DNA from: Acinetobacter sp. CS-2
Lineage (GTDB): Bacteria > Pseudomonadota > Gammaproteobacteria > Pseudomonadales > Moraxellaceae
Assembly (NCBI RefSeq): GCF_016599715.1
Contig: NZ_CP067019.1
Location: forward strand, 124,001-188,000
Direction of reading: 5' to 3'
Length of the DNA stretch: 64,000 nt
Part shown: piece after piece, positions 9,104 to 63,144 of the stretch
Layout: each line of letters starts with the position of its first letter
Numbering within the stretch: position 1 is the first letter of the stretch
Program-made: the position numbers and the translations under genes
Notes under the pieces: model-generated
Seen by the model: only the letters and a program-made list of their open reading frames with translations
Told to the model about the DNA's origin: nothing
Database searches by the model: none

Positions 9104-9290
9104 AAGTGTAAAAAACAATCAATTGAATATTCTTATAATTTTTTGAAATATTAAACAAGATTGATATACCCCATATCTTGTGTATATTTACAATTAATAT
9201 ACAATATATTGTTATTTTTATATAATTTTAAGAACTAAATAACAACCTATAACATGCTGTATATTTGAAGATATAGAGGTTCTTACTTGG
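9104..9290. promoter_or_regulatory. Divergent control region of trio A with palindrome
   Basis: Very AT-rich region between trio A and the decayed CxxC gene. It contains a perfect 12-bp palindrome ACAATATATTGT at 9201-9212 among several TATA-rich elements. The equivalent gap of trio B has its own palindrome (18315-18328), so this is a plausible operator and promoter region. Confidence 0.5.
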
Positions 9291-12280: not shown

Positions 12281-12425
12281 AATACTGCAAATTCTTGTTT
12301 AAATGATCATTAAATTTTGTGCTAACTTGGACAGACATTATTTGGCTAGTGGGACAAACAGTTATTGCTCTTTAAGATGATTAATTTAATCACTCACGCT
12401 TGGAAGTCTATATTAAATCATTACA
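12281..12425. other. Gene-free stretch
   Basis: AT-rich, nothing recognised. It lies between the Xre remnant and a solo IS21-type end. Confidence 0.4.
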
Positions 12426-12482
12426 GGAATGACTGGTAAACCACGAATAAGAATGCGTGGCAAACTTATCCAATAATTTTCA
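12426..12482 (-). mobile_element. Solo, decayed terminal repeat of an IS21-family transposon
   Basis: The sequence corresponds with scattered mismatches to the outer ~57 bp of the right terminal repeat of the 49580-63136 transposon (GGAATGACTGGT, CCACGAATAAGAATG, AACTTATCCAATAATTTTCA). Its CA end at 12481-12482 abuts the stop codon of the trio B third gene at 12483, so an IS21-type insertion probably clipped that gene. No other part of that transposon is recognised here. Confidence 0.65.
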
Positions 12483-17623: not shown

Positions 17624-18252
17624 GATGATATTCCAGCCAGAATTTTTTCTAATGAAAGTGGACCAGCATAATTTGAAATAGAACTTACTGGACTTTTGGA
17701 TTTAGACAGTCCTGATAATTCTCGTAGATGATTGATAGTTAGAACTTCCTGACCGAAAACTTCCTGAAGATGTGCGGCTAAGTATTGTTCATTTAGCCAA
17801 TATGCGATGATATCAAAGCCATGAATTGAGTGATGTAATCCGGAACACAGTAAGGCCCTAACTTCGCTTAAAGCCTGGATGGTGAATTGGTAGGAATTAT
17901 TTTTCTCATAAGCTCTGAACTTAAATTCATTTTTATTCTTGTTGTAAAAATAGGCATAGATCCAACTGAAATGACTACTAAAAAAATAGTGATCAGCTTT
18001 GTCTGTTGTCAGAAGAGGGATTTCGATATTCTGTTTAAAAGTTAAATTCAAGTGATAGTTCTGCTGTTTCTCATTAAGCTGAAAAAATAGAGCAATCCAG
18101 ATTTGGTAGGCATGCATACATTTTGGATAACACATTAATTGTAAGTTTTTTGAAGATACACGATGACTTTCAATAGCTTTTTTTTTATAGACATATGCTG
18201 ATGTCTCCCCATATTTATGCCAAGTGGCTGAAAAATAAGCTATAATATTCAC
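17620..18252 (-). CDS. Trio B first gene, unknown function
   Basis: About 210 aa from a GTG at 18252; no good ribosome-binding site decides the start. No domain is recognised. It is rich in aromatic residues and Lys/Asn, without a signal peptide. A short C-terminal segment LTINHLRELSGLSKS looks like a helix-turn-helix recognition element. It matches the trio A first gene in position and size but has only weak sequence similarity. It is coupled to the second gene by ATGA. Confidence 0.6.
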   Translation of the reverse strand: MNIIAYFSATWHKYGETSAYVYKKKAIESHRVSSKNLQLMCYPKCMHAYQIWIALFFQLNEKQQNYHLNLTFKQNIEIPLLTTDKADHYFFSSHFSWIYAYFYNKNKNEFKFRAYEKNNSYQFTIQALSEVRALLCSGLHHSIHGFDIIAYWLNEQYLAAHLQEVFGQEVLTINHLRELSGLSKSKSPVSSISNYAGPLSLEKILAGISS

Positions 18253-23600: not shown

Positions 23601-26600
23601 AAGGCGCTTCTACAGACGGCGACGCTGCAGTCACCGAGCCGGTAACTGTGGGTGGCACGCTGACCTACGGTGGTTTTGCCGGTAAAACTCCTGTGGGCGT
23701 GGTGACTGTTGGTGATGTCGGCAAAGAGCGTCGCATCCAAAATGTGGCAGCAGGTCTGATTTCTGCGACTTCAACCGATGCCATCAATGGCAGTCAGTTG
23801 TATGCGACTAATGCCAAACTGGGCAATGTGGCCAATACCGTGAAGGAAAACTTCGGTGGTAATGCCACTTTGAATCCAGATGGCAGCATTACATACACTA
23901 ATATCGGCAATACCGGTAAAGACAATATCCATGATGCGATTAAGGCTGCTACCACCAAGGTTGAAGAAGGTGCCGGCATCAAAGTAGATCCTACAAAAAA
24001 TGCTGACGGTTCAACCACTTACACCGTATCTGCTAAGACTGATGGTACTACTACGAAGATTGATGACAAGGGCAACATCGCAGCTGTCACCGCACCATTA
24101 ACAACTAACACTGATGGTAAGGTAAATACACCAGCAGCACCAAATGCACTAGCAACCGCAGGTGATATCGCTAATGCGATCAACAACTCTGGTTGGAAAC
24201 TGGCAGCAGATGGCACAACTGGTACCGAGCTTATCAACCCAAGTGATACCGTAACCTTCAAAACTGGCAGCAGTAACCTAACTGTTCAGCGTGATGGTGC
24301 GAATATCACTTATGATTTGGCAAAAGACATTAACATCAACAGTGTTAAATTCGGTAACAATGGCCCAACCATCAAAGCTGATGCTAACAACAACATTAAT
24401 ATTGCTAAATCAGATGGCTCAGCAACCAAGATCACCAATGTAGCCGCAGGTACAGGTGATAATGACGCAGTCAATGTCAGCCAGTTGAAAGCGGCTAAAT
24501 CAACCGTTGAAGGTGACAAAGGCGTATCAGTAACACCAAAAACTAATGCTGATGGTAGCACGACTTACACAGTAGCAGCGAAGACTGATAACACGACTGT
24601 TAAAGTAGATGGCAACGGCAACATCGCAGCTGTCACCGCACCATTAACTACTAACACTGATGGTAAGGTAGATACACCAGCAGCACCAAATGCACTAGCA
24701 ACCGCAGGTGATATCGCTAATGCGATTAACAACTCTGGTTGGAAAGCAACATCAGGTGCAACAGGTTCAGGTGTTGTTAATGGCACGACAGAAGAGCTAA
24801 TCAACCCATCTGAAACAGTAACATTCCAAGCTGGCGATAACATGGTTCTAAACCAAGCTGGAAATGTATTCACTTACAGCTTGAATAAAGACATCAACAT
24901 CAACAGTGTTAAATTCGGTAACAATGGCCCAACCATCAAAGCTGATGCTAACAACAACATTAATATTGCTAAATCAGATGGCTCAGCAACCAAGATCACC
25001 AATGTAGCCGCAGGTACAGGTGATAATGACGCAGTCAATGTCAGCCAGTTGAAAGCCGCTCAAGCAGCTGCAACCACCAAGGTTGAAGGTGACAAAGGCG
25101 TATCAGTAACACCAAAAACCAATGCTGATGGTAGCACGACTTACACAGTAGCAGCGAAGACTGATAACACGACTGTTAAAGTAGATGGCAACGGCAACAT
25201 CGCAGCTGTCACCGCACCATTAACTATCACTGATGGTAAGGTAAATACACCAACAGCACCAAATGCACTAGCAACCGCAGGTGATATCGCTAATGCGATT
25301 AACAACTCAGGTTGGAAACTGGCAGCAGATGGCACAACAGGTACCGAGCTTATCAACCCAAGTGATACCGTAACCTTCAAAACTGGCAGCAGTAACCTAA
25401 CTGTTCAGCGTGATGGTGCGAATATCACTTATGATTTGGCAAAAGACATTAACATCAACAGTGTTAAATTCGGTAACAATGGCCCAACCATCAAAGCTGA
25501 TGCTAACAACAACATTAATATTGCTAAATCAGATGGCTCAGCAACCAAGATCACCAATGTAGCCGCAGGTACAGGTGATAATGACGCAGTCAATGTCAGC
25601 CAGTTGAAAGCGGCTAAATCAACCGTTGAAGGTGACAAAGGCGTATCAGTAACACCAAAAACTAATGCTGATGGTAGCACGACTTACACAGTAGCAGCGA
25701 AGACTGATAACACGACTGTTAAAGTAGATGGCAACGGCAACATCGCAGCTGTCACCGCACCATTAACTACTAACACTGATGGTAAGGTAGATACACCAGC
25801 AGCACCAAATGCACTAGCAACCGCAGGTGATATCGCTAATGCGATCAACAACTCTGGTTGGAAACTGGCAGCAGATGGCACATCAGGTACCGAGCTTATC
25901 AACCCAAGTGATACCGTAACCTTCAAAACTGGCAGCAGTAACCTAACTGTTCAGCGTGATGGTGCGAATATCACTTATGATTTGGCAAAAGACATTAACA
26001 TCAACAGTGTTAAATTCGGTAACAATGGCCCAACCATCAAAGCTGATGCTAACAACAACATTAATATTGCTAAATCAGATGGCTCAGCAACCAAGATCAC
26101 CAATGTAGCCGCAGGTACAGGTGATAATGACGCAGTCAATGTCAGCCAGTTGAAAGCGGCTAAATCAACCGTTGAAGGTGACAAAGGCGTATCAGTAACA
26201 CCAAAAACCAATGCTGATGGTAGCACGACTTACACAGTAGCAGCGAAGACTGATAACACGACTGTTAAAGTAGATGACAAGGGCAACATCGCAGCTGTCA
26301 CCGCACCATTAACAACTAACACTGATGGTAAGGTAAATACACCAGCAGCACCAAATGCACTAGCAACCGCAGGTGATATCGCTAATGCGATTAACAACTC
26401 TGGTTGGAAAGCAACATCAGGTGCAACAGGTTCAGGTGTTGTTAATGGCACGACAGAAGAGCTAATCAACCCATCTGAAACAGTAACATTCCAAGCTGGC
26501 GATAACATGGTTCTAAACCAAGCTGGAAATGTATTCACTTACAGCTTGAATAAAGACATTAACATCAACAGTGTTAAATTCGGTAACAATGGCCCAACCA

Positions 26601-49571: not shown

Positions 49572-49579
49572 CAGAATGT
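49572..49579 (+). repeat. Target-site duplication, left copy
   Basis: CAGAATGT directly precedes the TGCA terminus of the transposon and is repeated at 63137-63144 on the other side. Confidence 0.85.
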
Positions 49580-49654
49580 TGCATATTCCTGCATAAACCT
49601 ACCACCTATTCCTATTCGTTCCCTACCACTCATTCCTATTCCAAGTCGGCCACT

Positions 49655-49799
49655 TAGGGTTTATTCAGTAATAGAATTACAAGAAGAATGAACCTCATAA
49701 AAAGTATTCAAATGCCAATATTGCACAACAGCGCTACTTATATCATTTAGCGATGAACTGATTTACGATTACGTTCGATGATCGATTAAAAAATCGAAC
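49655..49799. other. Gene-free end of the transposon
   Basis: AT-rich segment between the left terminal repeat and the fragment below; nothing recognised. Confidence 0.4.
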
Positions 49800-49975
49800 T
49801 TACACAAAATAATTTACAGGCTCTAAAATACGTTTAGTACTTTTAGCAGTATCAATAACAATACCACCACCTTTCTTCGCAACCGTTACCATCCCTGTAC
49901 TAATCGCTGCTGAAAGACCATTGAGTGCTGTTGTCACCTCCTAATTTTGGTAGGTATTTAGCCTTATCGACTACA
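49800..49975 (-). pseudogene. Fragment downstream of cdiI, possible orphan CdiA tail
   Basis: One minus-strand frame reads LNGLSAAISTGMVTVAKKGG, then GIVIDTAKSTKRILEPVNYF, to a TAA at 49800-49802; a second frame before it reads VVDKAKYLPKLGGD. The two need a frameshift to join. CDI loci often keep displaced toxin fragments downstream, so this may be one, but I do not recognise the domain. Confidence 0.4.
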
Positions 49976-49980
49976 GCCCC

Positions 49981-50430
49981 TTAATTAATTACTTCAAGAA
50001 AATCATCTATTAAATTGAGTAAATCTAGACTTTTACATTTAGAAAAAATTACCTTATTTACAATGTTATCTTTGTATTCAAAAAAATGATCTTCATATAA
50101 AAACCAAGTAAAATAAATAGTATTATTATTCCTTGCTGCCCTTTTACTGAAATCATCAAAGGTTTCTTCTAAAGTGATTCTGTAATTCTCAGATAATAAA
50201 CCTTTAGGATAGAAAAATTTTTTACAATTTTCATCATTTATCACATTGCTATAATAGTAATTATCATTTAGTAAGTTTTTTAGTGAATTTATAAAGCTAG
50301 TCACATAAGTAGGAGAGTCTAAAGTTCCTAGATACTCCCCCTCAATACATAAACGCAATGGGATGAAATTACTATTCTGATAATTTCCATCAAACTCTAT
50401 AAAAACTTGATCGTTTCCAATTCTATTCAT
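49981..50430 (-). CDS. cdiI: Putative CdiI immunity protein
   Basis: 149 aa, acidic, no signal peptide, rich in Asn/Tyr/Phe (NLLNDNYYYSNVINDENCKK). No family recognised, as is common for immunity proteins. The assignment rests on position: its ATG overlaps the cdiA stop by 4 bp (ATGA). It should bind and block the C-terminal toxin of the adjacent CdiA in the producing cell. Its codon use is AT-richer than most of cdiA, typical for exchangeable toxin-immunity cassettes. Confidence 0.75.
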   Translation of the reverse strand: MNRIGNDQVFIEFDGNYQNSNFIPLRLCIEGEYLGTLDSPTYVTSFINSLKNLLNDNYYYSNVINDENCKKFFYPKGLLSENYRITLEETFDDFSKRAARNNNTIYFTWFLYEDHFFEYKDNIVNKVIFSKCKSLDLLNLIDDFLEVIN

Positions 50431-53400
50431 TTGCTATCTACCATTTTTATCAAGTCAGAAGGGACATCAGAAATCTTGATATTTCGTTCCTTTCCTGAGG
50501 ACGTAATACCTTTTGTCGAACCATTCCAATGGAAATTGCCATTACCATCATCTTGAAACCTATGATAAATGACCTTCCCATCTTTATTTTCAATTGCCCA
50601 TCTATTTTTTGGATCACTATCAATTTTTACACTGTTTTCCCATAATTTTACATGATTGTCAGGAATTATTGCTTTAGTAGAGTTATAAGGCATATTTCCA
50701 TCTTTCAAGTCATGATGTCCTGGATTTTCATAATATTGTGTTTCAACATTAATAACTTTATCTTTAGTTGATGGCTTGGTGCCTTCGACTATGTAATTAC
50801 CAATAGTATTATTACTTTCGTCCTTATGTATGCCTAAAATCTGATGTCCAGTTATGGAATTATTATCCCCTATTTCAAATCCAGATTTAGAAACTTCAAG
50901 TTCTGAATCTTTCCCCTTAACAACACCTTTACCTATTCCAGCACCTACAACTCCAGCCACAGCATTAATTAAATATTCTGCACCTTGTTTATTCTTTTCA
51001 ATTTCATTTGCAAATTTCAATTCATCTAATTTATTTTCAGACGTAGAGTTTTCAATTTCTTTAACTTTCTCTGGATTAGTCCAATTATTAATCGTATTTG
51101 AATTGGTAAGATGAGCGGCGGCAGTTAATGATGTTGCTAGAGCATCAAATCCTTGAGCTATTTCAGCTCCTGCTACATTATCTAAAGCTAAAGACTTTCC
51201 TGTCTCAATTACTAAACGAACTGGACCTGAAATCATTAAACCTACCGCAAGTTGAACAGTACCTAAATCAACACCTAAATCATCGCTAATCTGTTTTATA
51301 TTATTCCCTAAATCTGCAATATTGCTTAAAATAGTCATACCAACTGTTGTTTGAGTCGTAACTTTTGTCTCAAAGTCAGTCCCTTTTGCATAAATTGTTT
51401 CTTGTTCGCTTACGCCTATTTTAGGTTGTTTAAAAATCGTTTCTAAATCAACACCAGATTGAGCTAATGTATCTAATTGATTCTGAATCTCACTAAATTC
51501 TTTTGCTGCATAGAAAAAATCTAATTTAGAAAATAATGCTTCTACTTCTTTGGGCTCTATCCCTCGTTTGAGTAATTCACTTGCAACTTTGTCACCAACT
51601 ACGCCCGTTTCTTTATATTCACTTGGTAAATTATAAAGCCTTGCCTGAATATTATTTAGCGTTTGTAAAGCCTTATCTTTGTACTCACCCTCTGGTAATG
51701 CTTTCGCTAAATTTTCAGCACTTTGACGGAAATTTTCAGGTAGATCCTTTTGCTGCTGAATAATCTCCGCACGGCCACTTTCTGTCAGTAAACGATGATC
51801 AACCGTCACAGAGCCATCCAGCATGCCTGTAGTTTGATCTCTAGTGATTTCTTGCGTGTTGTTAATGTCTCGATTGGTCGTATCGGTCGCATTTTTTACA
51901 GTACCTTGTCCCATCGTCGCTTTGGTCAGCTGTTCTGTTTCTTGTCCACTGCTGTTGAGGCCAATGGTCGTTGAACCTTTTGGTGCAGTAGATGCTTCTT
52001 TGGTCCCACCTTGTGGAATACCGATATTGGTCGAGACATTAAAGCCGCTGCTACTGTTGTAGTTGTGGTCCTCAAGATCTTTCAGCTCAAGTTCGCCCGA
52101 GTAATTTAACTTACCATGATCACTTAATGAACCATCAGTTTTCTTTGTCGCATTCGCAATCACACCACCAATATTAGTGACATTTTTCACACCCATTGCA
52201 TCCAAGTCTGCATCGTTTTGTGCATTACCTATCAGCAACTTACTGGTGTCATTCACCCATGCACTGTCACTATTACCTTTAGCTTGGTTGTAGCTGGCCG
52301 TAATATTCTTTGAACCCGAACCATAACCGCCGCCAATAGAACCGCCTTTACTGCTATTGCTGCTGGATGCTGTATCCTGCAAGCTTTCTACATGAATTTC
52401 CTTAACTTGCAGGCTACCTCGATCAGCAATGCTCACCGTACCGCCTTGAACATTCAATTTATCAATAGCACCTTCAGTACGATTCAGTACAACTTCACTA
52501 TTTACGTGGGTGAGGCTTTCGTTTTGTGATTGGCTGGTTTGCTTGCCTATTGAAGCACTGCCGCCACCGCCATAGGTATAGCTCACACTTTGGCTATTGG
52601 TTTTACTGCTGTTGTCCTGTTTACTATGCTCGACGCCTGCAGTCACATTCAGGTCTTTGCTGCCATCGAAGGTCGTAGTGCCTGCCGCATTCACGCGACT
52701 ACCTTGAATATTGATGTCTTGACCTTCTGATTTAAGCTGAAGGTTGTTTAAATCTAAGTTGCTACCTTGCCATTGGCTTTGTTCTGTATTCGTGGTCGTC
52801 GTAGTTTCAATCCTTTCACCATTGGCACCAATAGTAAAGCCATAGGTTGCACTGCTTGCAGCCGCAGATGCGGCTGCTGCCCCTACAGCAATCTGTGCAG
52901 TTGCTACATTGGCCGTTGCCATTGCGACATTGGCTTTGCTGTCATCTAAGGCTCCTTTGGTAATTCGGCCCGCTGCATAGTCACGTTGTGCTTGGCTATA
53001 CTCATCTTTAGCTTTAGATAAGGCTTTAGTTGCATCTGCAACAGCTTCTACCGCTAAGATTGCATCTAAATAGGCATTGCGAATGCCGACTTCTGTACTC
53101 ACAGTTTCAGTATGGGTCTTTTCTTCTGTGGCGGTTTTATTTTCATAACCGCCTATGTTGAGATTTCCTCGACCATGATCAATGATCGTATCACCTGCAG
53201 CCGTGATATTTTGGCCGAGGAGATCTACACCTTCAGCACCTTGAATCATTAAGTTTTCAGTATTGATATTGCCTGACTTATGCGTTGTGGCTGTAGTTTT
53301 AACGGTATTCTCTGTATCTTCAAGTACAAAGCCGCCCACTCGAATGCTGTCTTTATTCAGCTTTACCCCAAGACCTTGTACCGTTTCTTTGCTGTTTGAG

Positions 53401-56400
53401 CTTACCGTTTTGTGTTGTTCTTCTGCTGCATCGAGCGTGACTTTTTTGCCCGCTAAGACCGTGTTCTGTGCATCAATGTTACTACTGGTCAGTGTCGTTT
53501 GACCTGCTGAGCCCACATAGACATTATTGGCACCAAGATCGGTCCCTGTTTGTGTTCTTTTCTCAGTCCGTGTGCTCGATGATTCTCCGATCGTGATCTT
53601 CGGTGCTTTTAATCCCGGAGCTAAAGCCTCAATACCTGCTAAGCCAACAGCAGTCACTTTCATTAAGTCTTTGGCAATGCCTCGATAGCCCTTTTGTGTT
53701 TCATCCCATTGCTGATCATTGGTTTCTAATGTCGTCAGACTGACATTTTCGGGCAGGGCATTACCATCTTTGGATTTTAAACTGCCATCCGCTTGGCGTT
53801 CGAATTGGGTATTGCCAATATAAATATTGTCTTGAGCTTGTATATCATTGGCTTGCAGCTCGATATTTTTACCGGCATTGATATCAACATTTTTGCCAGC
53901 TTTGAGCTGTGTTTGTGCAACGTCTTCGTCGATATATCCTGATTGACGGTTTTTAAATTGAATTGTATTTTTCTTGGCTGTTTCCGTGCTCTTCATGTCA
54001 GTATCAATATCTGACAAAAGTTTGACATTACCTTGGTTTGCCGTAATTTGAATGCTGTCTTTCGCACCTGCTTGCAGGTGTGTGGCTTGAATATCTCCTG
54101 TTTGGCTATTGATCAGGATATTGCCACCCGATTGGATGTCGGTTGCAATCGATTGACTGGTCGAAGATTGGATTTTTTTATCTGTTGTAGAGAAGCCACC
54201 TTTTTCTTGGGCGGCAAGCTGAGAACTGCGTTCATCTCGTCCATTTTCGCTCAAGACATTTTGTCTAGCATCAATCACTACATTGCCCGACGTACTCTTC
54301 AATGTGCCGACTTTAATCTGAGTATTGGCAACGCTTTGCAGAGAGATATTACCTTTCGCCTGAATCTGCGTCCCTACATCTCGACTCGAAGCATTCAGAA
54401 TCTGATCCTTGTCACCTGCTGAGCTTAAATCACTGCGACTGACATTCACCGTAGAAAGATTCAGGTCTTGTCCCGCTTTGATGGTAACACTGCCTTGGCT
54501 TTGTAGATCTGATGCAGTCAGATTGATATTATTCTTGGCATTAGCAACCAGCTGACCATCCGCCTCTTGTACATACAGCCCAGCAACACGGCCAATGTTT
54601 TCAGCGCTAAATTCACTTAAACCGTGCTTATTTTCAGTTTTAATCGTCGTGGTGATGTTGTTAATGTCTCGGCCCGCATCAAGGGCAAGGGTTTGATTGG
54701 CGGTCATTGTCCCACCAATATTATTGATATCGGTGTGTGCTGTCGCAAAGACGTCTCGACCTTGTATTAAGCCGCCCACGTTATTCATGTTATTGGCTTC
54801 AAGATTCACCAATTGGCGTCCAGCAATGCTGCCTTGGTTGTTTAAATCCCCACTCAGTTTTAAATTGACCGTCTCGCCTGCAATCAAGGTACCTTTGTTG
54901 TTTAAATCTCCCGGCTGTACTGCAACATACACTTTCGGTACCAAGACTTGGATTTTTTCGCCATCAACGGTAATGGTTTCTGTCACCAGCCACACCATAT
55001 CACTGGTCAATCGAGCAATCTGTGCTTCTGAAAGTTTCACCCCAACACTTAAATTAAGATCTTTGGCGGCACTCACCCCAGAATCCATCAAGGCTTTGAA
55101 TTGATCCTCGAAGTTCGTATAACCATCTAAATAAACTTGACCCGTCAGTTGTGCAATTTGGTCATTGACCAGTTTTTGCTCGTAATAACCATCCCCTAAA
55201 CGTTTTTGCATGTTTTGCGGGTCGGTCGCGAACATTTGCAGCATGTAATCACTGCCTAACCATTTTTTATAATTAGTAAAGGCATCGCTGCTTTCAATCA
55301 AAGGGCGGTTATTATTTTCTTTATTCACGCTGTATAAGGATTGCAGCGGTAAGCTGAGTTCTGAGGTATCACCATTTAATCCACCTTGATGAGCACCATC
55401 ATATTTCACCACATCAAGTTTGATCGGTGTCACAATGTCCGCAGGATTATAGGCACGAACACCATTCCATTCGCTTTTTTTGCTGGTACCTAAAGAGTTC
55501 CATCCTACATAGTGATACTGCGATGTCCCATTTTTAATCACACGATGCTCACCCTCAGCATCAATATTATTCACCTCATTTTGTTCAATAGTGATGCCTT
55601 TCGCCGCTAGAATCTGACTCTTGTCATTGGTCAGGCTTTGGCCTTTTAGCGTCAGTGCACCGCCTGAAATAATCTCCGCAGGTGCACTGGAATCCACATA
55701 ATGTTTAGTTTCGTACTGGTTATAGATATATCTGGTATAGTCTTCATATTTTTGACCGTCCAGATAAATGGTGTCATGACTGCCGTGACCTGTAATATGC
55801 GATGAATCAAGAATTTCAGCACTTCCAGCTCCTTGATAAGCGGTCACATCTTTGCGGGTTTCCGGTATTTCTTTAACACTTGAACTGAAGTGTAAATTTC
55901 GGTTGGTCAACGTATCCACACCTAGGTACATGTCACCCACAGATTGAATACGTGCACTGGCATTATCTAAGGATGCGGCAGAGCCTTCAGCCATATGGTT
56001 TACATTCAGTTGTCCACCAACGGTCAGCGTACCTTCACTGGCGATTAGGGCTTGTTCTCTATTTTCAATTTTTCCGCCTGCAATATCTAAGCGTTGACGT
56101 GCCGCAATCGTGCCTGCTTTGACACCTTCGCTGGTTTGTTGTTCCGCATTGAGAAGATGCGCGGTTTGTAGGGCAATATGGTCACCATAGATTTGACCTG
56201 TACCCACATTTTGAATGCCTTGACTGGCATCAATACGCGTCAAACCTTGGCTATTAATGAGGCCAGTATTATTGACGTTTTCAGCCTGAATGCGTTGATC
56301 GCCCAGACTTAATATCTTGCCAGTATTGTTTAAATCTTTTGCTTGAAGATTTAAACTCACTGGGGTGCTATCGACTTTATTTTCTGCAACGACTGCACCG

Positions 56401-57431
56401 CTATTTTGCAGCTCGCCATTGGCACTGATTTTAATATGCCCAGCTGAGGCAAACACTTGCCCCGCATTGTTAATCCCAACCCCTTGTTCGGTACTGATTA
56501 AACTGATTTTGCCCGCATACATCCCGCCTAAGCGACTGGTATCAATGGCAAACTGTGGTACAGTGCCTGCCGATCCCGAAGCAGCCTGTATCGCACCAGC
56601 CTGCGGATTGCCTTCAATATCATTTTGTCCGGCAACCACCGTTAATTCTTTAGCCCAAATCCCCGCATTGATCTGTGCAGCACGGCTGAGCAGTTGGGTA
56701 TAGTCGGCTTTACCGGCATCCAAGCCCTGACCTGTGATGTTAATCACCCCGTCACGGACTTGATAACCCGTGACTTGTCCATTTTGAATATTCGGATTAG
56801 CGGTACTTAAAGTCACCCCACCTGCATTGATAAAACCGCCGCCATCGACATTAATCCCAGCTTGGTTGGCAATGATCACATCTGCTTTGCGTCCACCGAC
56901 CTCTACATAGCCATTTAAGTGACTTGGATTGCTGCTGTTGACTTGATTGACAATGACTTTGGCTTCACCGCCTGCAAGCCACGGATTGGCTTGGATATAA
57001 CCCCCAAGCTGCGTTTGGGTATTTTGGCGGCTGTTATTTAAAATGACACCATTCTGATTCACATCAAATTGCTGGTAGTGATTCACCGATACCCCAGCTT
57101 TGCTTGGGGTTTGAATATTCACCTGCGCTGTGCCATTGGCGCTGTTCAATATCGTTGGACGCTGATTGCCTGCCGCATTCGGGTCTGCAACAACATTACT
57201 GTGTGATACACCAATAGATGCACTGATCAGAGCAGTGCCTGTAATCAGCATCAATGAAAATGAAAGAACTTTTAAACCTAAACTTTTTTCAGAAGCAATG
57301 ACTGCTGTTTCAAGATCAACCGCTTTATTATTCTGTGTTGAGGCTTGTCCTGCGGCTGAGACATTTTCTGCAACGGCAATCATCTCACCACGGGTTTGAC
57401 TAAAAATCGTTTTATAACAGTTCTTATTCAT
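50427..57431 (-). CDS. cdiA: CdiA contact-dependent inhibition toxin exoprotein
   Basis: 2334 aa two-partner-secreted effector. Extended signal region MNKNCYKTIFSQTRGEMIAV, hydrophobic signal near residues 55-75, then the secretion domain (NPNAAGNQRPTILNSANGTA-type start, NPWLAGGEAKVIVNQVN, VIIANQAGINVDGGGFIN), long filamentous-haemagglutinin repeats, and a helical segment near 2150-2190 before the toxin. The last ~110 residues form the toxin domain, with NPGHHD (from about 2236), NHVKLWENS, VIYHRFQDD and FHWNGST. I cannot name it; the clustered His residues suggest a nuclease. A classical VENN motif is not obvious. Confidence 0.9.
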   Translation of the reverse strand: MNKNCYKTIFSQTRGEMIAVAENVSAAGQASTQNNKAVDLETAVIASEKSLGLKVLSFSLMLITGTALISASIGVSHSNVVADPNAAGNQRPTILNSANGTAQVNIQTPSKAGVSVNHYQQFDVNQNGVILNNSRQNTQTQLGGYIQANPWLAGGEAKVIVNQVNSSNPSHLNGYVEVGGRKADVIIANQAGINVDGGGFINAGGVTLSTANPNIQNGQVTGYQVRDGVINITGQGLDAGKADYTQLLSRAAQINAGIWAKELTVVAGQNDIEGNPQAGAIQAASGSAGTVPQFAIDTSRLGGMYAGKISLISTEQGVGINNAGQVFASAGHIKISANGELQNSGAVVAENKVDSTPVSLNLQAKDLNNTGKILSLGDQRIQAENVNNTGLINSQGLTRIDASQGIQNVGTGQIYGDHIALQTAHLLNAEQQTSEGVKAGTIAARQRLDIAGGKIENREQALIASEGTLTVGGQLNVNHMAEGSAASLDNASARIQSVGDMYLGVDTLTNRNLHFSSSVKEIPETRKDVTAYQGAGSAEILDSSHITGHGSHDTIYLDGQKYEDYTRYIYNQYETKHYVDSSAPAEIISGGALTLKGQSLTNDKSQILAAKGITIEQNEVNNIDAEGEHRVIKNGTSQYHYVGWNSLGTSKKSEWNGVRAYNPADIVTPIKLDVVKYDGAHQGGLNGDTSELSLPLQSLYSVNKENNNRPLIESSDAFTNYKKWLGSDYMLQMFATDPQNMQKRLGDGYYEQKLVNDQIAQLTGQVYLDGYTNFEDQFKALMDSGVSAAKDLNLSVGVKLSEAQIARLTSDMVWLVTETITVDGEKIQVLVPKVYVAVQPGDLNNKGTLIAGETVNLKLSGDLNNQGSIAGRQLVNLEANNMNNVGGLIQGRDVFATAHTDINNIGGTMTANQTLALDAGRDINNITTTIKTENKHGLSEFSAENIGRVAGLYVQEADGQLVANAKNNINLTASDLQSQGSVTIKAGQDLNLSTVNVSRSDLSSAGDKDQILNASSRDVGTQIQAKGNISLQSVANTQIKVGTLKSTSGNVVIDARQNVLSENGRDERSSQLAAQEKGGFSTTDKKIQSSTSQSIATDIQSGGNILINSQTGDIQATHLQAGAKDSIQITANQGNVKLLSDIDTDMKSTETAKKNTIQFKNRQSGYIDEDVAQTQLKAGKNVDINAGKNIELQANDIQAQDNIYIGNTQFERQADGSLKSKDGNALPENVSLTTLETNDQQWDETQKGYRGIAKDLMKVTAVGLAGIEALAPGLKAPKITIGESSSTRTEKRTQTGTDLGANNVYVGSAGQTTLTSSNIDAQNTVLAGKKVTLDAAEEQHKTVSSNSKETVQGLGVKLNKDSIRVGGFVLEDTENTVKTTATTHKSGNINTENLMIQGAEGVDLLGQNITAAGDTIIDHGRGNLNIGGYENKTATEEKTHTETVSTEVGIRNAYLDAILAVEAVADATKALSKAKDEYSQAQRDYAAGRITKGALDDSKANVAMATANVATAQIAVGAAAASAAASSATYGFTIGANGERIETTTTTNTEQSQWQGSNLDLNNLQLKSEGQDINIQGSRVNAAGTTTFDGSKDLNVTAGVEHSKQDNSSKTNSQSVSYTYGGGGSASIGKQTSQSQNESLTHVNSEVVLNRTEGAIDKLNVQGGTVSIADRGSLQVKEIHVESLQDTASSSNSSKGGSIGGGYGSGSKNITASYNQAKGNSDSAWVNDTSKLLIGNAQNDADLDAMGVKNVTNIGGVIANATKKTDGSLSDHGKLNYSGELELKDLEDHNYNSSSGFNVSTNIGIPQGGTKEASTAPKGSTTIGLNSSGQETEQLTKATMGQGTVKNATDTTNRDINNTQEITRDQTTGMLDGSVTVDHRLLTESGRAEIIQQQKDLPENFRQSAENLAKALPEGEYKDKALQTLNNIQARLYNLPSEYKETGVVGDKVASELLKRGIEPKEVEALFSKLDFFYAAKEFSEIQNQLDTLAQSGVDLETIFKQPKIGVSEQETIYAKGTDFETKVTTQTTVGMTILSNIADLGNNIKQISDDLGVDLGTVQLAVGLMISGPVRLVIETGKSLALDNVAGAEIAQGFDALATSLTAAAHLTNSNTINNWTNPEKVKEIENSTSENKLDELKFANEIEKNKQGAEYLINAVAGVVGAGIGKGVVKGKDSELEVSKSGFEIGDNNSITGHQILGIHKDESNNTIGNYIVEGTKPSTKDKVINVETQYYENPGHHDLKDGNMPYNSTKAIIPDNHVKLWENSVKIDSDPKNRWAIENKDGKVIYHRFQDDGNGNFHWNGSTKGITSSGKERNIKISDVPSDLIKMVDSK

Positions 57432-57503
57432 TTCTCTTTTACCAATGCTTTAAATCTTTTCAAATGTCTTTAAGGACTCATTATTTTTTTTGAATGCTCA
57501 AAA

Positions 57504-59261
57504 TCAAAATGAGTAATTCAGGCTAATCCCATAATTCATATCGTAATTTTGGAAGTGGTCAGGTTTCTGCAGCGGCTTGCCTACAAAAAAGTCATAATAA
57601 AAGCTACCACCTGCCTGTACTTGGCCTCTAAAACCCATGGCTGTGCCAATTAAGGTTTGGCCCAATAGCCATTCTGCTGATTGTCCATCGACATGACCCG
57701 CATCTAAAGCAATATAAAATTGGTGTGTGGGGAAAATAGACATGGCTAAATCATTGCGCCAGTAAAATCCACGGTCTGCTGCTAAGGTTAGGTCACCGTC
57801 AAAACCGCGTACCGTATACCTTCCACCAATAGAAAGCCGGTCTTGGATGGTCAGTGGCGTGCCGTTATATTGCGCTCTAAAGGCACTTGAGTAGCTATAT
57901 TGCTGATTTTCAAATTGGAACGGAACATTCAGATTGGCATCCAGCGTCCAGATCTTCATCCGTGATGTACCTTCGTTCAGCGCTTCCTCAACTGCTGGTA
58001 ATGAATCAAATGCACCTGTGCCGCGCTTATATCCTAGGCTCAAATCCAGCACTGCAGATTGAATATATTCACGATGGTCAAGATTGAATTGCCAACCTGC
58101 AACGTCTCTTCGTTGTACAGTCAACTCTGCATCATCAATATAGCTTTTTGATTCACGATGCCAACCTTTTAAGGTCGCTGAGGTTTTACGCTTGGCATCC
58201 CGATAAAGCAATCGGGTCAAACCTAAATCTTGAGTCTGACTTTCTCCATTATAGTTATAGACATTGTTTGTACCTGCAACAGCTTGGTCATAATTGTATC
58301 GACTCGCATTGGCACTGATCAGCCAGTTTTTATAAGGGACTGAATAATGAAGGGCGTAGTTATGGGTTCCGCTCTTCACTGTGGTTCCATTTTGATCCGT
58401 AATCTCTTGCTGATCTGCTAAGTTACGGCCCACAGTGACGTAAAATAAGTCACTTCTAAATAAAGGGTTATCCACTGAAACGGTGATGTTGCCTTGATAT
58501 TTACCAGTTTGACGGCTCCCAGCATCATCAGCACTTAAGGTCACGCGAATTGGAATTTTTCGCTGTTTCCATTTGACGATCACATCACTTTGATTGGGCG
58601 CATCTGCAGGAATAATTTGAATATCAGCTTCCGCTGTAGGCAGCCTTTTTAAGTTTTCTAAGCCTTGTTCTAAATCTCGTAAATTGAGAATATCGCCACT
58701 CTTCATCGGAAAGATATTTTTGGCATATTGAATTCGGCCTGCTCGGGTATTTTCCTCATCACTTAAATCGAGTTTGATTTCTCGAACTAATCCTGGAATG
58801 ACGGTAAGTTTTAATACGCCTGTGCTTAAGTTTTGAGGTGCAGCCAATATTCGTGTCGTAGTAAAGCCTCGGCCAATGATGATGTTCTGTGTTTGCGTCA
58901 TCAACAGATTGATTCGCTGCTCACCCATGCATAAACCTGAAGTAAAACTTAAATCTTTTAACGCTTGTTGCACATCGTGATCAAACTGCTGACTCATTTC
59001 TCCATGAAGTTCAACTGTTTTAATTTCAAAACAATTCTGGTCTTCAATGTCTGTGAGTTTTACAGCTTCTTTTTTTTGAACAACCTCTAAATTTACATCA
59101 CGTTCAGGTTGTATAATTTTTTCTAATTCTGCTTGGCGGTGCTGGTTTCGAATCAAACCATCTATCGCTGGGTCAAATGTTTCTGCAAATGTAAAAGGAG
59201 TAACAACAAAACCACCCAAAGAAAGCAAAATGCTTTTTAATACTATATTTTTTCTGAACAT
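57504..59261 (-). CDS. cdiB: CdiB outer-membrane transporter
   Basis: 585 aa from the ATG at 59261; an upstream ATG at 59300 lies before the signal peptide. Signal peptide FRKNIVLKSILLSLGGFVVT...FAET, an N-terminal linker with QHRQAELEKIIQPERD, two POTRA domains (about 70-215, e.g. TQNIIIGRGFTTTRILAAPQ), then a 16-strand barrel with the TpsB motif GGRYTVRGFDGDLTLAADRG and a final aromatic residue (LNYSF). It exports CdiA through the outer membrane. It lies 72 bp upstream of cdiA in the same operon. Confidence 0.93.
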   Translation of the reverse strand: MFRKNIVLKSILLSLGGFVVTPFTFAETFDPAIDGLIRNQHRQAELEKIIQPERDVNLEVVQKKEAVKLTDIEDQNCFEIKTVELHGEMSQQFDHDVQQALKDLSFTSGLCMGEQRINLLMTQTQNIIIGRGFTTTRILAAPQNLSTGVLKLTVIPGLVREIKLDLSDEENTRAGRIQYAKNIFPMKSGDILNLRDLEQGLENLKRLPTAEADIQIIPADAPNQSDVIVKWKQRKIPIRVTLSADDAGSRQTGKYQGNITVSVDNPLFRSDLFYVTVGRNLADQQEITDQNGTTVKSGTHNYALHYSVPYKNWLISANASRYNYDQAVAGTNNVYNYNGESQTQDLGLTRLLYRDAKRKTSATLKGWHRESKSYIDDAELTVQRRDVAGWQFNLDHREYIQSAVLDLSLGYKRGTGAFDSLPAVEEALNEGTSRMKIWTLDANLNVPFQFENQQYSYSSAFRAQYNGTPLTIQDRLSIGGRYTVRGFDGDLTLAADRGFYWRNDLAMSIFPTHQFYIALDAGHVDGQSAEWLLGQTLIGTAMGFRGQVQAGGSFYYDFFVGKPLQKPDHFQNYDMNYGISLNYSF

Positions 59262-59378
59262 AAATTTATTGCATGCTAAATTTTGCGCAGAAATTAACAA
59301 AATCTCACCATATATTCAATGGTATTTTATTTTTCAATTTCTCCCATTAGATTTTACCCCTCAATAGACACTTAACTT

Positions 59379-60329
59379 TCAACTTTCATTCTGCAGGACA
59401 CCCTCACTTGCCACATGTGTCGTTGATAGCCAATCTGACCATTGTTCCTGATATAACTGTGCCATATGAGCACTTGGCTGTTTTTTCCATATTTCTTCCC
59501 ACCAAAAGGAGGTTTGGGTCGTGCGAAGAATAGATAAAGGATGAACATAAAGCTTGCGAAGCTGATTAAATTTTTCATCTTTGAGCAAATAGCTATACAC
59601 AGCATTGCGGTGTGGGCTGTTATAAAGATAACACCATAAACGTGCAAAATTTTGCAACATTCTTCGCCCACCATCGCCAATGACTGTTGAGATATGAGCT
59701 CTTGTTTGCAGAACATCTACTCGCTCGTCTTTGTATTCACGAACGATCAGGAGTTCGCCTTCAGGGGAAATATTTCGAACGAAATGAATTTTCTTAACTT
59801 CGCTCATAAAAATTTCATGATCTGTGATTCCTTGAGTTAAAAATAATTCAGGAATATCTTGTTCTGGAATACCAGACGCATCAAATGATGAATTGGGGGT
59901 TGGATAACCATCTCCGTGAACCAGCCAGTCTTGATTGAGCTTTAAAAAATCTGCAATACTTCGAAGTTGAGAAAATGTAGGTTCTTGCTTTCCTTGCACC
60001 CAATCGAGGAAGATTTCAGCGGTGTCATAACCCAGCCGCTCTGCAATATGTGAATACTTAAGCTCTTTTGCATTTGAGTAATTAGACCACTGAATCGCAT
60101 GAACCAATCGATCTGACAATTCCTTCTTGCGGTCCATGAGCTGGTATGGGCCTAAAATAGTTTGTTCACTTCCTTCGATTTCCAGCTTTTTAAAATTAAA
60201 GCTATTTTCTAAGCGGGCAACCACTTCAGCATTCATGGACCGCTTTGAATCCTGCGCTTCAGCCTCTATTTTTTGTTTTAGCTCTGTCGGTAATCTTAAT
60301 TTTATTTGAGAATCGCTTAAAAGACTCAT
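59379..60329 (-). CDS. Regulator with Arc-type ribbon-helix-helix and Xre-like domain
   Basis: 316 aa from MSLLSDSQIKLRLP. An Arc/Mnt-type ribbon-helix-helix (IKLRLPTELKQKIEAEAQDS, SMNAEVVARLE) is followed at about residues 70-145 by an Xre-like segment (YSHIAERLGYDTAEIFLDWV, SQLRSIADFLKLNQDWLVHG). The ~165-residue C-terminal part is not recognised. It is divergent from the small RHH gene at 60409 and separated from it by a large palindrome, probably its own operator. It may also control the CDI operon immediately downstream. Confidence 0.78.
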   Translation of the reverse strand: MSLLSDSQIKLRLPTELKQKIEAEAQDSKRSMNAEVVARLENSFNFKKLEIEGSEQTILGPYQLMDRKKELSDRLVHAIQWSNYSNAKELKYSHIAERLGYDTAEIFLDWVQGKQEPTFSQLRSIADFLKLNQDWLVHGDGYPTPNSSFDASGIPEQDIPELFLTQGITDHEIFMSEVKKIHFVRNISPEGELLIVREYKDERVDVLQTRAHISTVIGDGGRRMLQNFARLWCYLYNSPHRNAVYSYLLKDEKFNQLRKLYVHPLSILRTTQTSFWWEEIWKKQPSAHMAQLYQEQWSDWLSTTHVASEGVLQNES

Positions 60330-60353
60330 CTTAGAGTACCTCATTATATTGAC

Positions 60354-60398
60354 AATAAACCACTATGGTTTATCATTGCTAAACCATAGTGGTTTATT
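60354..60398. promoter_or_regulatory. Double operator between the two RHH genes
   Basis: Perfect inverted repeat with 19-bp arms (60354-60372 and 60380-60398) and a 7-bp spacer. Each arm contains a shorter palindrome, AAACCACTATGGTTT or its inverse, so this looks like two binding sites for RHH dimers controlling both divergent genes. Confidence 0.85.
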
Positions 60399-60408
60399 TG
60401 AGGTCGAT

Positions 60409-60576
60409 ATGAACCCCAATACTGAATTTGCTCAATTAAAAATACGCATCCCTGTATCGCTGAGAAAGCAGCTGCAAGCAGAATCTAATGCCCAACAGCG
60501 ATCTTTAAATGCTCAAGTTAACTTTATTTTAAAGAAGTTTATGCAATTCTCGGACAATGTACAAATGAAAGATTAG
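60409..60576 (+). CDS. Small Arc-family ribbon-helix-helix protein
   Basis: 55 aa, almost only an RHH domain: FAQLKIRIPVSLRKQLQAES then RSLNAQVNFILKKF. The start at 60409, just after the double operator with AGGT upstream, is preferred to an ATG at 60349 that would be inside the operator. Its RHH segment is related to that of the divergent 316-aa regulator, so the two may compete for the same sites. Confidence 0.8.
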   Translation: MNPNTEFAQLKIRIPVSLRKQLQAESNAQQRSLNAQVNFILKKFMQFSDNVQMKD

Positions 60577-60599
60577 TACAGTCATCGGCAGAAAAAAAT

Positions 60600-60627
60600 A
60601 AAGGCTCATGATGGTGCATGAGCCTTT
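60600..60627. terminator. Hairpin after the small RHH gene
   Basis: AAGGCTCATG (60601-60610) pairs perfectly with CATGAGCCTT (60617-60626). The T-run is better on the minus strand (read leftward) than on the plus strand, so it may work mainly to block antisense transcription. Confidence 0.65.
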
Positions 60628-60667
60628 AAGAGTTGTCTTAATTTTGCGGTCAAGACAAGATCATTGT

Positions 60668-60699
60668 ATTGAACATTGATTCTTTTATCAATGTTCAAT
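60668..60699 (+). promoter_or_regulatory. Perfect hairpin in the istA leader
   Basis: ATTGAACATTGAT (60668-60680) pairs with ATCAATGTTCAAT (60687-60699) around a TCTTTT loop, 45 bp before the istA ATG. It may limit istA expression from outside transcription or bind a regulator. Confidence 0.5.
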
Positions 60700-60744
60700 G
60701 AGTGGTTTCTGCCTCTTTAAGTGAACCAAAGAGGTCTATAATTT

Positions 60745-62307
60745 ATGCGTATCGAAACCGATAAGATTCGGCAGGCAGTCAGACTGCTCAATTTAGAATA
60801 CAGTCAAAGGGAAACGGCTAAACAAGTCAGTATTTCCAGAGATTCTGTTAAAGTGATTTATGAAAAGTTAAAACTTTTTCCAATCCACAATAGTGAACTT
60901 AATTTATTTACTAACCTTGAATTGCTCGACTATTTTGAAATCTCTAGGGTCGCTAACTACCCAACAAGAAAAATATATCCAGATTTTGAGTATGTGAATC
61001 AAGAACTAAAAAAACGTGATATGACCCTTGAATTACTTTGGCAAGAATATATTGCTCAATATGCAAAGGGGCTTTCTTATTCACGTTTTTGTGAAGTATT
61101 TAGAAATTTCCAAAAAAAACGGCATTCATCCATGCGCCAAAGTTTTAAAAGTGGTGAAGCGCTGTTAGTGGATTTTTGCGGTCGTACAATGGAAATCACA
61201 TCGCCATTAGATGGATCAAAAAGTTATGTTCAGGTATTTGTAGGTGTTTTAGGGGCATCCGCGTATACGTTCGCTTATGCAGTTCCGAGCCAAAAAGTGG
61301 AACATTGGCTCGAATGTTTTATTCAGGCATTTAAGCATATCGGCGGTGTACCAGACACAATTATCACTGACAATTTAAAGTCAGCCGTGATCAAGAACAA
61401 TAAGTCGGGTTTAGAGTTTCAGAAGGACTTTGAAGATTTTGCTGCGCATTACGATTTTGCGATTATGCCAACTCGACCCCGTCATCCAAAGGATAAAGGG
61501 CTAGCGGAAGTCAGTGTACAAATTGTTCAGCGTTCAGTTCTTGCATCTTTACGCAATCAAAAATTTTTCTCTATTGACGAACTCAACCAAGCAATCCAAC
61601 AAAAAATGGATATCATAAACCGTAAAACGACTCGCCGATTTACCATTAGTCGTTATGAACAGTTCTTGGCTTTGGATGGCAAAGACCTCAATCCATTACC
61701 TCTTTACCCATATGAATTGTGTACTTGGAAACGTTCGGTGCGGGTAAGTGAGTTCTATCGCGTTGAGTATCAATCTAACCAATATTCTGTTCCCTATACA
61801 TATGCGCATTTACAAGTTGATATCAAGATCATGCAATCCGCCATTCACGTTTTTTATGAACGTGAAAAAATAGCTGAGCATACGATCAATCAGGGGATCC
61901 ATCAGGATATGTGTTTAGATGAGCATATGTCACCAGAGCATCTTGCGCAAAAAGGCCTATCCAAAGACGAAATCATTTTTTGGGCAGATCGTATGGGGTC
62001 ACATACTTCACAGTATGTTAATCATATCCTCAGTCAAAAAAGAGACCTTGCCAAAAATATTAAATCATTAAATAAATTCAGAGAATGGATCGTAGATAAA
62101 CAAAAATCACATTGTTTGGAAGGCGCTTGTCAATTTGCAATGGAACGCCAGATTTTTACGCTTAAGCGGCTTGAAAGCATTATCACGAATAATGCTTTCC
62201 TCATTCAGAAAACGTCAGACATTCAACCTCGTCCACCAACGCCACATCAAAATATTCGTGGTGCAGATTATTATTTGCAGCATTCAGGAGTAACGGCACA
62301 TGCTTAA
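60745..62307 (+). CDS. istA: IstA transposase of IS21 family
   Basis: 520 aa. An N-terminal helix-turn-helix (LNLEYSQRETAKQVSISRDS) and a DDE integrase core with Asp in ALLVDFCGRTMEI, Asp in DTIITDNLKSAVIK and Glu in HPKDKGLAEVSVQI, then a C-terminal region with the Mu-type beta-barrel features. Its stop overlaps istB by 8 bp. Intact, so the surrounding transposon may still move. Confidence 0.93.
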   Translation: MRIETDKIRQAVRLLNLEYSQRETAKQVSISRDSVKVIYEKLKLFPIHNSELNLFTNLELLDYFEISRVANYPTRKIYPDFEYVNQELKKRDMTLELLWQEYIAQYAKGLSYSRFCEVFRNFQKKRHSSMRQSFKSGEALLVDFCGRTMEITSPLDGSKSYVQVFVGVLGASAYTFAYAVPSQKVEHWLECFIQAFKHIGGVPDTIITDNLKSAVIKNNKSGLEFQKDFEDFAAHYDFAIMPTRPRHPKDKGLAEVSVQIVQRSVLASLRNQKFFSIDELNQAIQQKMDIINRKTTRRFTISRYEQFLALDGKDLNPLPLYPYELCTWKRSVRVSEFYRVEYQSNQYSVPYTYAHLQVDIKIMQSAIHVFYEREKIAEHTINQGIHQDMCLDEHMSPEHLAQKGLSKDEIIFWADRMGSHTSQYVNHILSQKRDLAKNIKSLNKFREWIVDKQKSHCLEGACQFAMERQIFTLKRLESIITNNAFLIQKTSDIQPRPPTPHQNIRGADYYLQHSGVTAHA

Positions 62308-63040
62308 AAAGTCAGTAAAAGATAAGCTGGAACAGCTTAAGCTCAAAGGTTTTCTTCGATCAGCAGAAAGCTCACTGGATCAAATGATCAGTCAGGAGGC
62401 AAGTATTGAAGAGTTCTTAGATTATTGTCTAGATGCTGAATTGAATGATCGAATAAATCGGAGAATTGAACGGTTATTTTCTCAAGCCAAATTCCGATAT
62501 CCAAATGCAAGATTAGAACATATCGACTATGCAGCGGAACGGCAAATTAAAAAAGCAGATATTCATCGCTATGCGAGCTGTGAATGGATTAATGATGGTC
62601 GCGGACTTATTATTTCAGGCTCAACGGGTGTAGGAAAATCATGGCTAGCTTGCGCTTTTGGAGCAGAGGCTTGTCATCGCAGTTACAGCACGATGTATTT
62701 TAATGCGATTAGCTTATTTGATGAAATTGCCAATGCAATCACTTTAGGTGAAATCAAAGACTTCAAGAAAAAAGTATGTACTGCAAAATTGCTTATTATT
62801 GATGATTTTGGTTTAGGTGGATTTAATCAATCATTAGCACCAGCTTTTCTTGAAATTATCGATAAGCAATCTCAGAGCGGTGGACTTTTAATTACAAGCC
62901 AAGTTCCTAAAAAATTATGGTTTGAGCAGTTTCAAGATCCTACCATTGCAGATGCAGTCATGGATCGGATTTTACATAGATCTTATGAACTTGAGATTTT
63001 AGGCCGGTCGTACAGAGAGAAAATCTTTTCTCAAAAATAA
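62300..63040 (+). CDS. istB: IstB ATPase helper of IS21 family
   Basis: 246 aa AAA+ ATPase related to DnaC. Walker A GSTGVGKSWLACAFG, Walker B LLIIDDFGLGG, sensor region ITSQVPKKLWFE and a terminal helix LEILGRSYREKIF. IstB remodels target DNA and activates IstA. Intact, translated from an overlap with istA. Confidence 0.93.
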   Translation: MLKKSVKDKLEQLKLKGFLRSAESSLDQMISQEASIEEFLDYCLDAELNDRINRRIERLFSQAKFRYPNARLEHIDYAAERQIKKADIHRYASCEWINDGRGLIISGSTGVGKSWLACAFGAEACHRSYSTMYFNAISLFDEIANAITLGEIKDFKKKVCTAKLLIIDDFGLGGFNQSLAPAFLEIIDKQSQSGGLLITSQVPKKLWFEQFQDPTIADAVMDRILHRSYELEILGRSYREKIFSQK

Positions 63041-63061
63041 AAGCTTATTTTTTTTAATTTG

Positions 63062-63136
63062 AGTGGCCGACTTGGAATAGGAATGAGTGGTAGACCACGA
63101 ACAAGAATGGGTGGCCGACTTATCCAGTAATTTGCA
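63062..63136 (-). repeat. Right terminal inverted repeat of the transposon
   Basis: Inverse of the left end at 49580-49654. It contains two GTGGCCGACTT motifs and GGAATGAGTGG, the repeated IstA-binding pattern usual at IS21 ends, and finishes TTTGCA at 63136. Confidence 0.85.
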
Positions 63137-63144
63137 CAGAATGT
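63137..63144 (+). repeat. Target-site duplication, right copy
   Basis: CAGAATGT, matching 49572-49579. Confidence 0.85.

Follow-up and report, generated by a model that had tools for sequence, protein, structure and literature searches.

Insertion sequences (ISs) of the IS21 family are typically compact, about 2–2.5 kb long with the left end adjoining istA, and duplicate 4–8 bp of target. An IS derivative with passenger genes inside its own ends has been termed a transporter IS (tIS; PMC9330008). Contact-dependent inhibition (CDI) loci are already known from genomic islands, plasmids, integrative and conjugative elements (ICEs) and one very large composite transposon, the bcpAIOB transposon of Burkholderia thailandensis, which spans ~210 kb with IS elements at each end and forms a megacircle (Ocasio and Cotter 2019, PMC6350997); among the ICEs, ICEPm2 and ICEPm3 of Proteus mirabilis lie in a tRNA gene and carry CDI (PMC11278526). 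Here we analyse a 64,000-nt stretch of the Acinetobacter sp. CS-2 genome (NZ_CP067019.1, positions 124,001–188,000; hereafter the window) and argue that 13,557 bp of it, at 49580–63136, is very probably a complete IS21-family unit transposon, or transporter IS, with a whole CDI locus as its cargo. Among the openly licensed papers that our searches listed, we saw no account of an IS21 unit with CDI inside it, nor of an IS21 family with CDI, defence or other conflict cargo; absence from print is not thereby shown.

Results

The unit is delimited by 75-nt inverted arms (49580–49654 and 63062–63136) that are imperfect rather than identical repeats, 83% complementary: right and left agree at 62/75 positions, against a best of 39/75 and a mean of 34.9 in 200 region shuffles. 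Its tips read TGCA, its termini TGCATATTCC...AGTAATTTGCA, and CAGAATGT abuts the left end (49572–49579) and the right end (63137–63144) as an 8-bp target duplication. This 8-mer is itself fairly frequent, with 9 occurrences over the two strands of the window (100 shuffles averaged 3.2, and none gave 9), so the weight rests on its exact abutment to both ends. Under end model R1 the left end (49580–49656, plus strand) scores 75.4 bits and the right end (63062–63136, minus strand) 75.1 bits, and the left end holds two tandem ~20-nt sub-repeats 24 nt apart (49598–49617 and 49622–49641); TG/CA ends with internal repeats resembling binding sites, to which IstA is predicted to bind, are those of the IS21 family. 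A chance inverted repeat is rejected by the shuffle control and by an end-profile search of the window, which returned the two full unit ends and one partial match (12423–12481), and no left end adjoining istA.

Within these ends lie cdiI, cdiA, cdiB and an Arc-domain regulator on the minus strand, followed by a 55-aa Arc/ParD-like protein, istA and istB on the plus strand. An earlier note, made from the letters of the window, had described 75-bp inverted ends with TG...CA termini, an exact 8-bp duplication and a 13,557-bp unit enclosing istAB, cdiB-cdiA-cdiI and two regulators, its left end beyond cdiI and not next to istA. The arms proved imperfect; otherwise all of this holds, the genes by open reading frame (ORF) and domain matches and the position of the left end by the family-end profile.

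Further copies exist. The right end was found twice in the 3.57-Mb host genome, and the second copy (G000:C1:546213-560575; 14,363 bp) ends in these tips as well, is flanked by AAATCA as a 6-bp duplication and is 98.4% identical to the window unit over 13.4 kb. Its istAB, small Arc gene, cdiI, toxin tip and both ends are identical to those of the window unit, its 321-aa Arc gene has one DNA difference that leaves the protein unchanged, and the remaining differences are patches in cdiA and cdiB with few elsewhere; an IS1-family insertion lies near its left end. A third full copy, in another Acinetobacter species (G155:C9:29936-44769; 14,834 bp, duplication ATTTTT), has a DDE-transposase gene inserted near the left end. 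The search that the earlier note had proposed for the same ends around other CDI loci was thus answered in the host genome and in a second species, and the target duplications of the three full copies (8, 6 and 6 bp) fit the IS21 family. In a further genome (G167; L048), a left end stands with remnants of a window-type cdiI and toxin tip, split by other IS-like genes; parts of this locus are masked.

Both host-genome sites are empty in relatives. Across the osmC-GST junction, where the window unit lies, 11/11 loci compared align as one piece, and the eight junctions listed have a single near-copy of the target each (CAAAATGT in two, GAATGT in one, CAGGATGT in five). The spacing between osmC and GST is 74–134 bp in 25 of the best 29 other loci (157 other genomes matched), which leaves no room there for a CDI-sized insert; in the other 4, osmC is absent from the flank examined. 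At the second-copy site, 6/19 loci compared align across the junction, four with AAATCA and two with a 5/6 match, and the other 13 do not align across it. The second and third copies, together with the empty sites, indicate that the CDI genes moved as one block: passengers within one pair of ends, at three sites of which two are empty in relatives, are what defines a transporter IS or unit transposon, and they support the earlier note's claim of a complete unit with CDI inside.

These comparisons bear on a different history, in which the CDI locus was already chromosomal and acquired flanking IS21 parts by chance, or by two separate insertions as in a composite transposon. Some plasmid relatives of the CDI locus do carry a left end alone, as that history would allow, yet there is a single istAB, one 8-bp duplication brackets the whole unit, osmC and GST are joined without CDI in relatives, and the same block with both ends sits at other sites, each with its own duplication; we regard such an origin as highly improbable. 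The two flanking IS copies of a composite transposon were not found, left-side conservation in the plasmid relatives being of the end only, and a CDI locus native to the osmC-GST position is rejected by the empty sites.

The genes of the unit fit a transposon with CDI cargo. IstA (60745–62307, plus; 520 aa), an IS21-family DDE transposase, matches NF033546 at 232.5 bits (cut-off 160), and its residues D143, D209 and E255 line up with acidic positions in the structure of the IS5376 transposase (8q4d) that we take to be the catalytic ones. Directly after istA, with an overlap of 8 nt, comes istB (62300–63040, plus; 246 aa), an IS21 helper ATPase that matches NF038214 at 208 bits (cut-off 200) and aligns to solved IS21 proteins. 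CdiA (50427–57431, minus; 2334 aa) has ESPR, two-partner secretion (TPS) and hemagglutinin-repeat domains and its TPS partner CdiB (57504–59300, minus) has POTRA_2, POTRA_3 and a ShlB barrel, the combination expected of CDI; CdiA matched neither a toxin family nor the PT-VENN domain. The candidate immunity gene cdiI (49981–50430, minus; 149 aa) overlaps the cdiA stop by 4 nt. It matches no Pfam or NCBIfam family and, in the PDB, nothing convincingly (best E 0.043), and its relatives are unnamed or 'hypothetical' proteins.

Between the CDI genes and istA lie the Arc-domain regulator (59379–60344, minus; 321 aa), whose relatives adjoin istA in other elements and for which a homologue search gave hits that bore no names, and the small Arc/ParD-like DNA-binding protein (60409–60576, plus; 55 aa), identified by a weak match below the Pfam cut-off. 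The interval between these divergent genes holds a palindrome (60354–60398) with two TAAACCA-N3-TGGTTTA boxes, a candidate operator; a comparable palindrome is present in two related loci (L056 and L058) and not clear in L188 and L192–L194. The stretch between the left end and cdiI (49657–49980), interrupted by an IS in the second and third full copies, is where the earlier note had seen a gene fragment: the stretch could be located, and no ORF of at least 60 aa is listed in it.

We searched a genus sample of 175 Acinetobacter genomes for related elements. The right end occurs in 31 of them (E <= 0.001), a profile built from 24 ends matches 67 (E <= 0.01; some matches weak and partial), and IstA is found in 11 at E <= 1e-60. 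Bounded elements with IstA about 75–100% identical have the core at the right and the cargo between the left end and the regulator; none has a left end adjoining istA, and target duplications across the family are 5–8 bp, at sites that differ from copy to copy. Seven such elements have a full or near full-length IstA at least 75% identical, with CDI as cargo in three, Avs3 in two, and type I restriction-modification (RM) and bacteriocin-type export in one each; an eighth, with truncated istA, carries a carbapenem-like cluster. Since this slot is occupied by other conflict systems in related elements, cdiBAI appears to be one exchangeable cargo of a standing IS21 vehicle.

The element of A. colistiniresistens (G021; 13,627 bp) combines type I RM with an AAA_13/PDC-S06 gene, and ends identical to its own are seen again at contig edges, where GTTTGAC is common to one pair; further contig-edge ends, with no more than a 4-bp repeat, suggest a third insertion in this genome. 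Avs3a and Avs3b are carried by a plasmid element of Acinetobacter sp. NCu2D-2 (10,782 bp, duplication GGTATGC) and by an element in G115 (13,959 bp), where an IS66 element lies inside Avs3a; a short A. brisouii contig has istAB and the start of an Avs3a gene. The element of A. baumannii pUSA15_1 (9,279 bp) encodes a C39-peptidase ABC exporter, HlyD and JmjC/cupin genes. On A. indicus pB18-1 (NZ_CP044456.1; element L058:4744-16170, 11,427 bp, istA truncated), CarA-, CarB- and CarC-like genes with a CoA ligase and ArgJ look like a small carbapenem-type biosynthetic cluster, and the best PDB matches include CarA/beta-lactam synthetase, CarB and carbapenem synthase; genes with the lengths and order of this cluster also lie across a plasmid origin in G049:C2 (L053, L208). 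An Arc gene adjoins istA in the CDI, RM, exporter and Car-like elements and not in the Avs3 elements, where its place is taken by a 159-aa protein or by something distantly related to that protein. This ~159-aa protein, possibly an alternative regulator, adjoins istA in L038, L042, L187 and L195, with a 28% relative in L041/L057, and matches no Pfam family above the cut-off.

Shorter or decayed loci were also seen. Elements of 0.8–1.9 kb with family-type ends (L189, L190, L196 and L197, in G100, G132, G142 and G169; L044, L049 and L051) include four of ~1.25 kb in which a truncated Arc gene survives, so that they resemble non-autonomous units; no duplication stands out clearly at L196/L197 (4 bp, offset), and a fitting duplication is absent at L039, L050, L052 and L198. 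Arc regulators 31–32% identical to the window's, with a family-end match ~3 kb off, occur at L209–L212 (G065 twice, G079, G039) and in G049:C1; no istA lies near them at E <= 1e-60, and they are perhaps remnants.

The pUSA15_1 element, whose IstA is 79% identical to that of the window, allowed a close look at an insertion. Its 2-kb flanks match many A. baumannii plasmids; 21 records are common to the best 40 of 284 and the best 40 of 227 listed for the two flanks, and in 20 of these (the other is pUSA15_1) the flanks overlap by exactly 7 bp at 100.0% identity. This is the length of the element's duplication, CTAGAAT, and the exact overlap in the empty plasmids indicates that the element entered a conjugative plasmid as a precise unit.

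Such an insertion speaks to the question of whether the window unit is a fossil that moved in the past, its istAB or ends now dead and its present spread owed to homologous recombination and plasmids. The patchy divergence of cdiBA between copies, the other ISs within copies 2 and 3 and the existence of short deletion derivatives are all in keeping with decay. Against this, both ist genes have uninterrupted reading frames and the acidic residues of IstA are present, the ends of the host-genome copies are identical, and the 79% IstA relative is a clean insertion whose flanks match the listed empty plasmids perfectly; we consider a fossil unlikely.

Matches to the left end together with cdiBA, at ~92% identity and at least 80% query cover, occur on six Acinetobacter plasmids. 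In the four examined (L200–L203: NZ_CP084298, NZ_CP071769, NZ_CP046044 and NZ_CP048015), the left end is 96% and the CdiA N-terminal part 95% identical, the adjoining tip is different, and further along comes a displaced fragment that resembles the window CdiA immediately ahead of its tip; one of the four has its cdiA annotated in two parts. The stretches examined of these plasmids contain no istAB and lack most of the Arc gene.

More distant relatives broaden the cargo. At loci with IstA 41–42% identical, an Arc regulator or the 159-aa protein adjoins istA; within this group G006 has a type IIG enzyme, SIR2 and HerA between probable ends (13,332 bp, ATACTG), G058 and G013:C96 a type IIG enzyme with no convincing ends and the contig cut, and G132 Thoeris genes, for which ends were not found. 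A 33% relative in G081 stands beside type I RM genes, again with ends not found. A family-level search returned an IstA relative in 13/119 genomes, the host's own included, and 12 loci were examined. In one other genus, IstA 34–39% identical occurs with CdiA/CdiB-like genes: L233 (16,952 bp, GATAAAT), L235 (17,552 bp, AAAAAC) and L237 (16,913 bp, ACATTG; CdiB gene in two pieces) have both genes between probable ends. Two further loci gave no end pair: L236, whose CdiA-like gene encodes PT-VENN and nuclease domains, and L238, which has only part of a CdiA-like gene. L232 (G247:C19, another genus) is a probable 9,152-bp element with major facilitator superfamily (MFS), PvcA-like and 2OG-Fe dioxygenase cargo, and L239 looks like a plain IS. 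Distant istAB also lie within several kb of resistance-nodulation-division (RND)-type efflux genes at L234, L241 and L242, in other genera, and a P-type ATPase with a heavy-metal domain is near istAB at L234 too.

The ends of these distant loci were sought in two ways. Pairing of arms by 60-nt similarity gave a duplication-bearing pair only at L237 (34/60), and a duplication-free 2.5-kb pair at L239. A search for TGCA tips with a repeat of at least 5 bp, run without L186 and L242, gave pairs at L184, L232, L233, L235 and L237, none at L187, L195, L234, L236, L238–L241 or L243, and 5-bp results at L185 that we treat as chance. With shuffled upstream sequence, repeats of at least 6 bp arose in 16 (L184), 12 (L232), 39 (L233), 17 (L235) and 71 (L237) of 200 trials, the shuffler being simple and perhaps biased; at such rates a duplication alone proves little, and the five pairs of ends are probable, not proven. 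What speaks for the distant elements is their similar tips and, at L233 and L235, matching breakpoints in different flanks: shared sequence reaches within 4 nt of the predicted tips and the flanks do not match.

An IstA tree with 23 rows places the two Acinetobacter CDI rows in a seven-row clade with the Avs3, RM and bacteriocin rows (100/100) and groups five TPS-locus rows in a clade of their own (100/100); its deeper forks are poorly supported, and it has some long branches. These clades point to cargo exchange and to at least two captures of CDI-type loci, and the pairing of IS21 with CDI probably arose at least twice.

On balance we lean towards a superfamily of IS21 type, in Acinetobacter and a related genus, that acts as a dedicated shuttle for conflict systems. 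Its core would comprise TGCA ends, IstA and IstB, and, encoded next to istA, either an Arc-type protein or the 159-aa one; the slot would take CDI, Avs3, RM, SIR2-HerA, Thoeris, bacteriocin and antibiotic-type clusters, the core swapping cargo and having captured CDI/TPS loci at least twice independently, and the regulators may couple transposition to weapon use. The theme could instead be a sampling effect, with an IS21 group that takes any genes and picks up weapons and defences as common accessory genes. We rate this as doubtful, if somewhat less so than decay of the unit. In its favour, a degenerate relative in G149 (8,641 bp) has remnants of the core next to LysR, oxidoreductase, MFS and hydrolase genes, distant istAB in other genera lie near efflux genes with ends not found, and the theme rests on the elements listed; the cargoes of the seven bounded elements and the carbapenem-like eighth stand on the other side.

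Elsewhere in the window, two sets of three adjacent minus-strand genes (2900–9118, 1071/779/230 aa; 12483–18252, 987/726/210 aa) have an integrase domain in the longest gene of each and resemble recombinase-in-trio elements. The partial family-end match at 12423–12481 (47.9 bits) adjoins the stop of the 987-aa phage-integrase-domain gene, and 60-nt partial end matches like it occur in five other genomes. At 20678–29056 lies a gene for a YadA-like trimeric autotransporter adhesin of 2792 aa.

Discussion

Judged from its genes and ends, the unit would move when IstA, with IstB as its helper, binds the repeats in the two ends and mobilises everything between them, insertion copying a few target bases (5–8 bp). 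The istAB of the window unit is probably still functional; the divergent Arc-type proteins may repress istAB, control the cargo, or both, through the palindrome between them; and, by analogy with known CDI biology, CdiA would kill non-immune neighbours while CdiI protects. The earlier note had further suggested that losing the element would mean losing immunity. This is plausible in general, CDI being known to stabilise a plasmid (Ruhe et al. 2016, PMC4927057), and weak in the host genome, where the two copies share the toxin tip and cdiI without any difference, so that loss of one alone would not expose the cell.

Several observations weigh against a unit that moves itself and its CDI genes. 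Transposition, excision or a circle were not observed, and the evidence consists of copies and empty sites. The exact CAGAATGT occurs in 0/8 of the osmC-GST junctions listed, where 6–7 of 8 bases match, so that of the earlier note's predicted empty site the joined junction stands and the exact single target does not. For the C-terminal 150 residues of CdiA, a search as lenient as E 0.1 found no Pfam family. When the three full copies are compared, the patches that set the window unit apart from the second copy coincide only in part with those that set it apart from the third; the CDI genes of the copies appear to have recombined too, and this patchy divergence of cdiA and cdiB suggests that recombination also moved pieces of the cargo. 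Lastly, plasmids L200–L203 keep the left end without istAB, so not all spread is by a transposase of the window type.

To the question of how CDI enters new replicons in one step, a 13.6-kb unit with a whole CDI set offers a simple answer. The wider family suggests that weapons and phage defences travel on an IS21 core in Acinetobacter, in one case on a conjugative A. baumannii plasmid, and predicts where cargo is to be sought, between the left end and the regulator adjoining istA. Two copies with identical toxin/immunity tips and patchy CdiB/CdiA would also be a natural case of recombination between mobile CDI loci.

Set beside known systems, the core resembles IS5376 (PDB 8q4d, 8b4h, 8q3w) in its istA-istB order and its DDE transposase with AAA helper, and the IS21 family at large in its TG...CA ends with internal repeats and its short target duplication; unlike in a plain IS21 element, the left end is separated from istA, by ~11 kb of cargo and regulators. 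With the transporter ISs it shares passenger genes inside its ends. In the bcpAIOB transposon (PMC6350997), too, a CDI locus is mobilised by IS-type transposition, whereas in the window a single IS21 unit of 13.6 kb encloses the CDI genes between its ends. ICEPm2 and ICEPm3 recall the plasmids L200–L203, with the same backbone, differing CdiA tips and orphan toxin/immunity sets (PMC11278526). The family as a whole can be likened to the Tn7-like transposons (PMC8649781), which likewise join a transposon core to exchangeable defence systems; the core here is instead IstA, IstB and Arc-type regulators, and insertion sites vary between copies.

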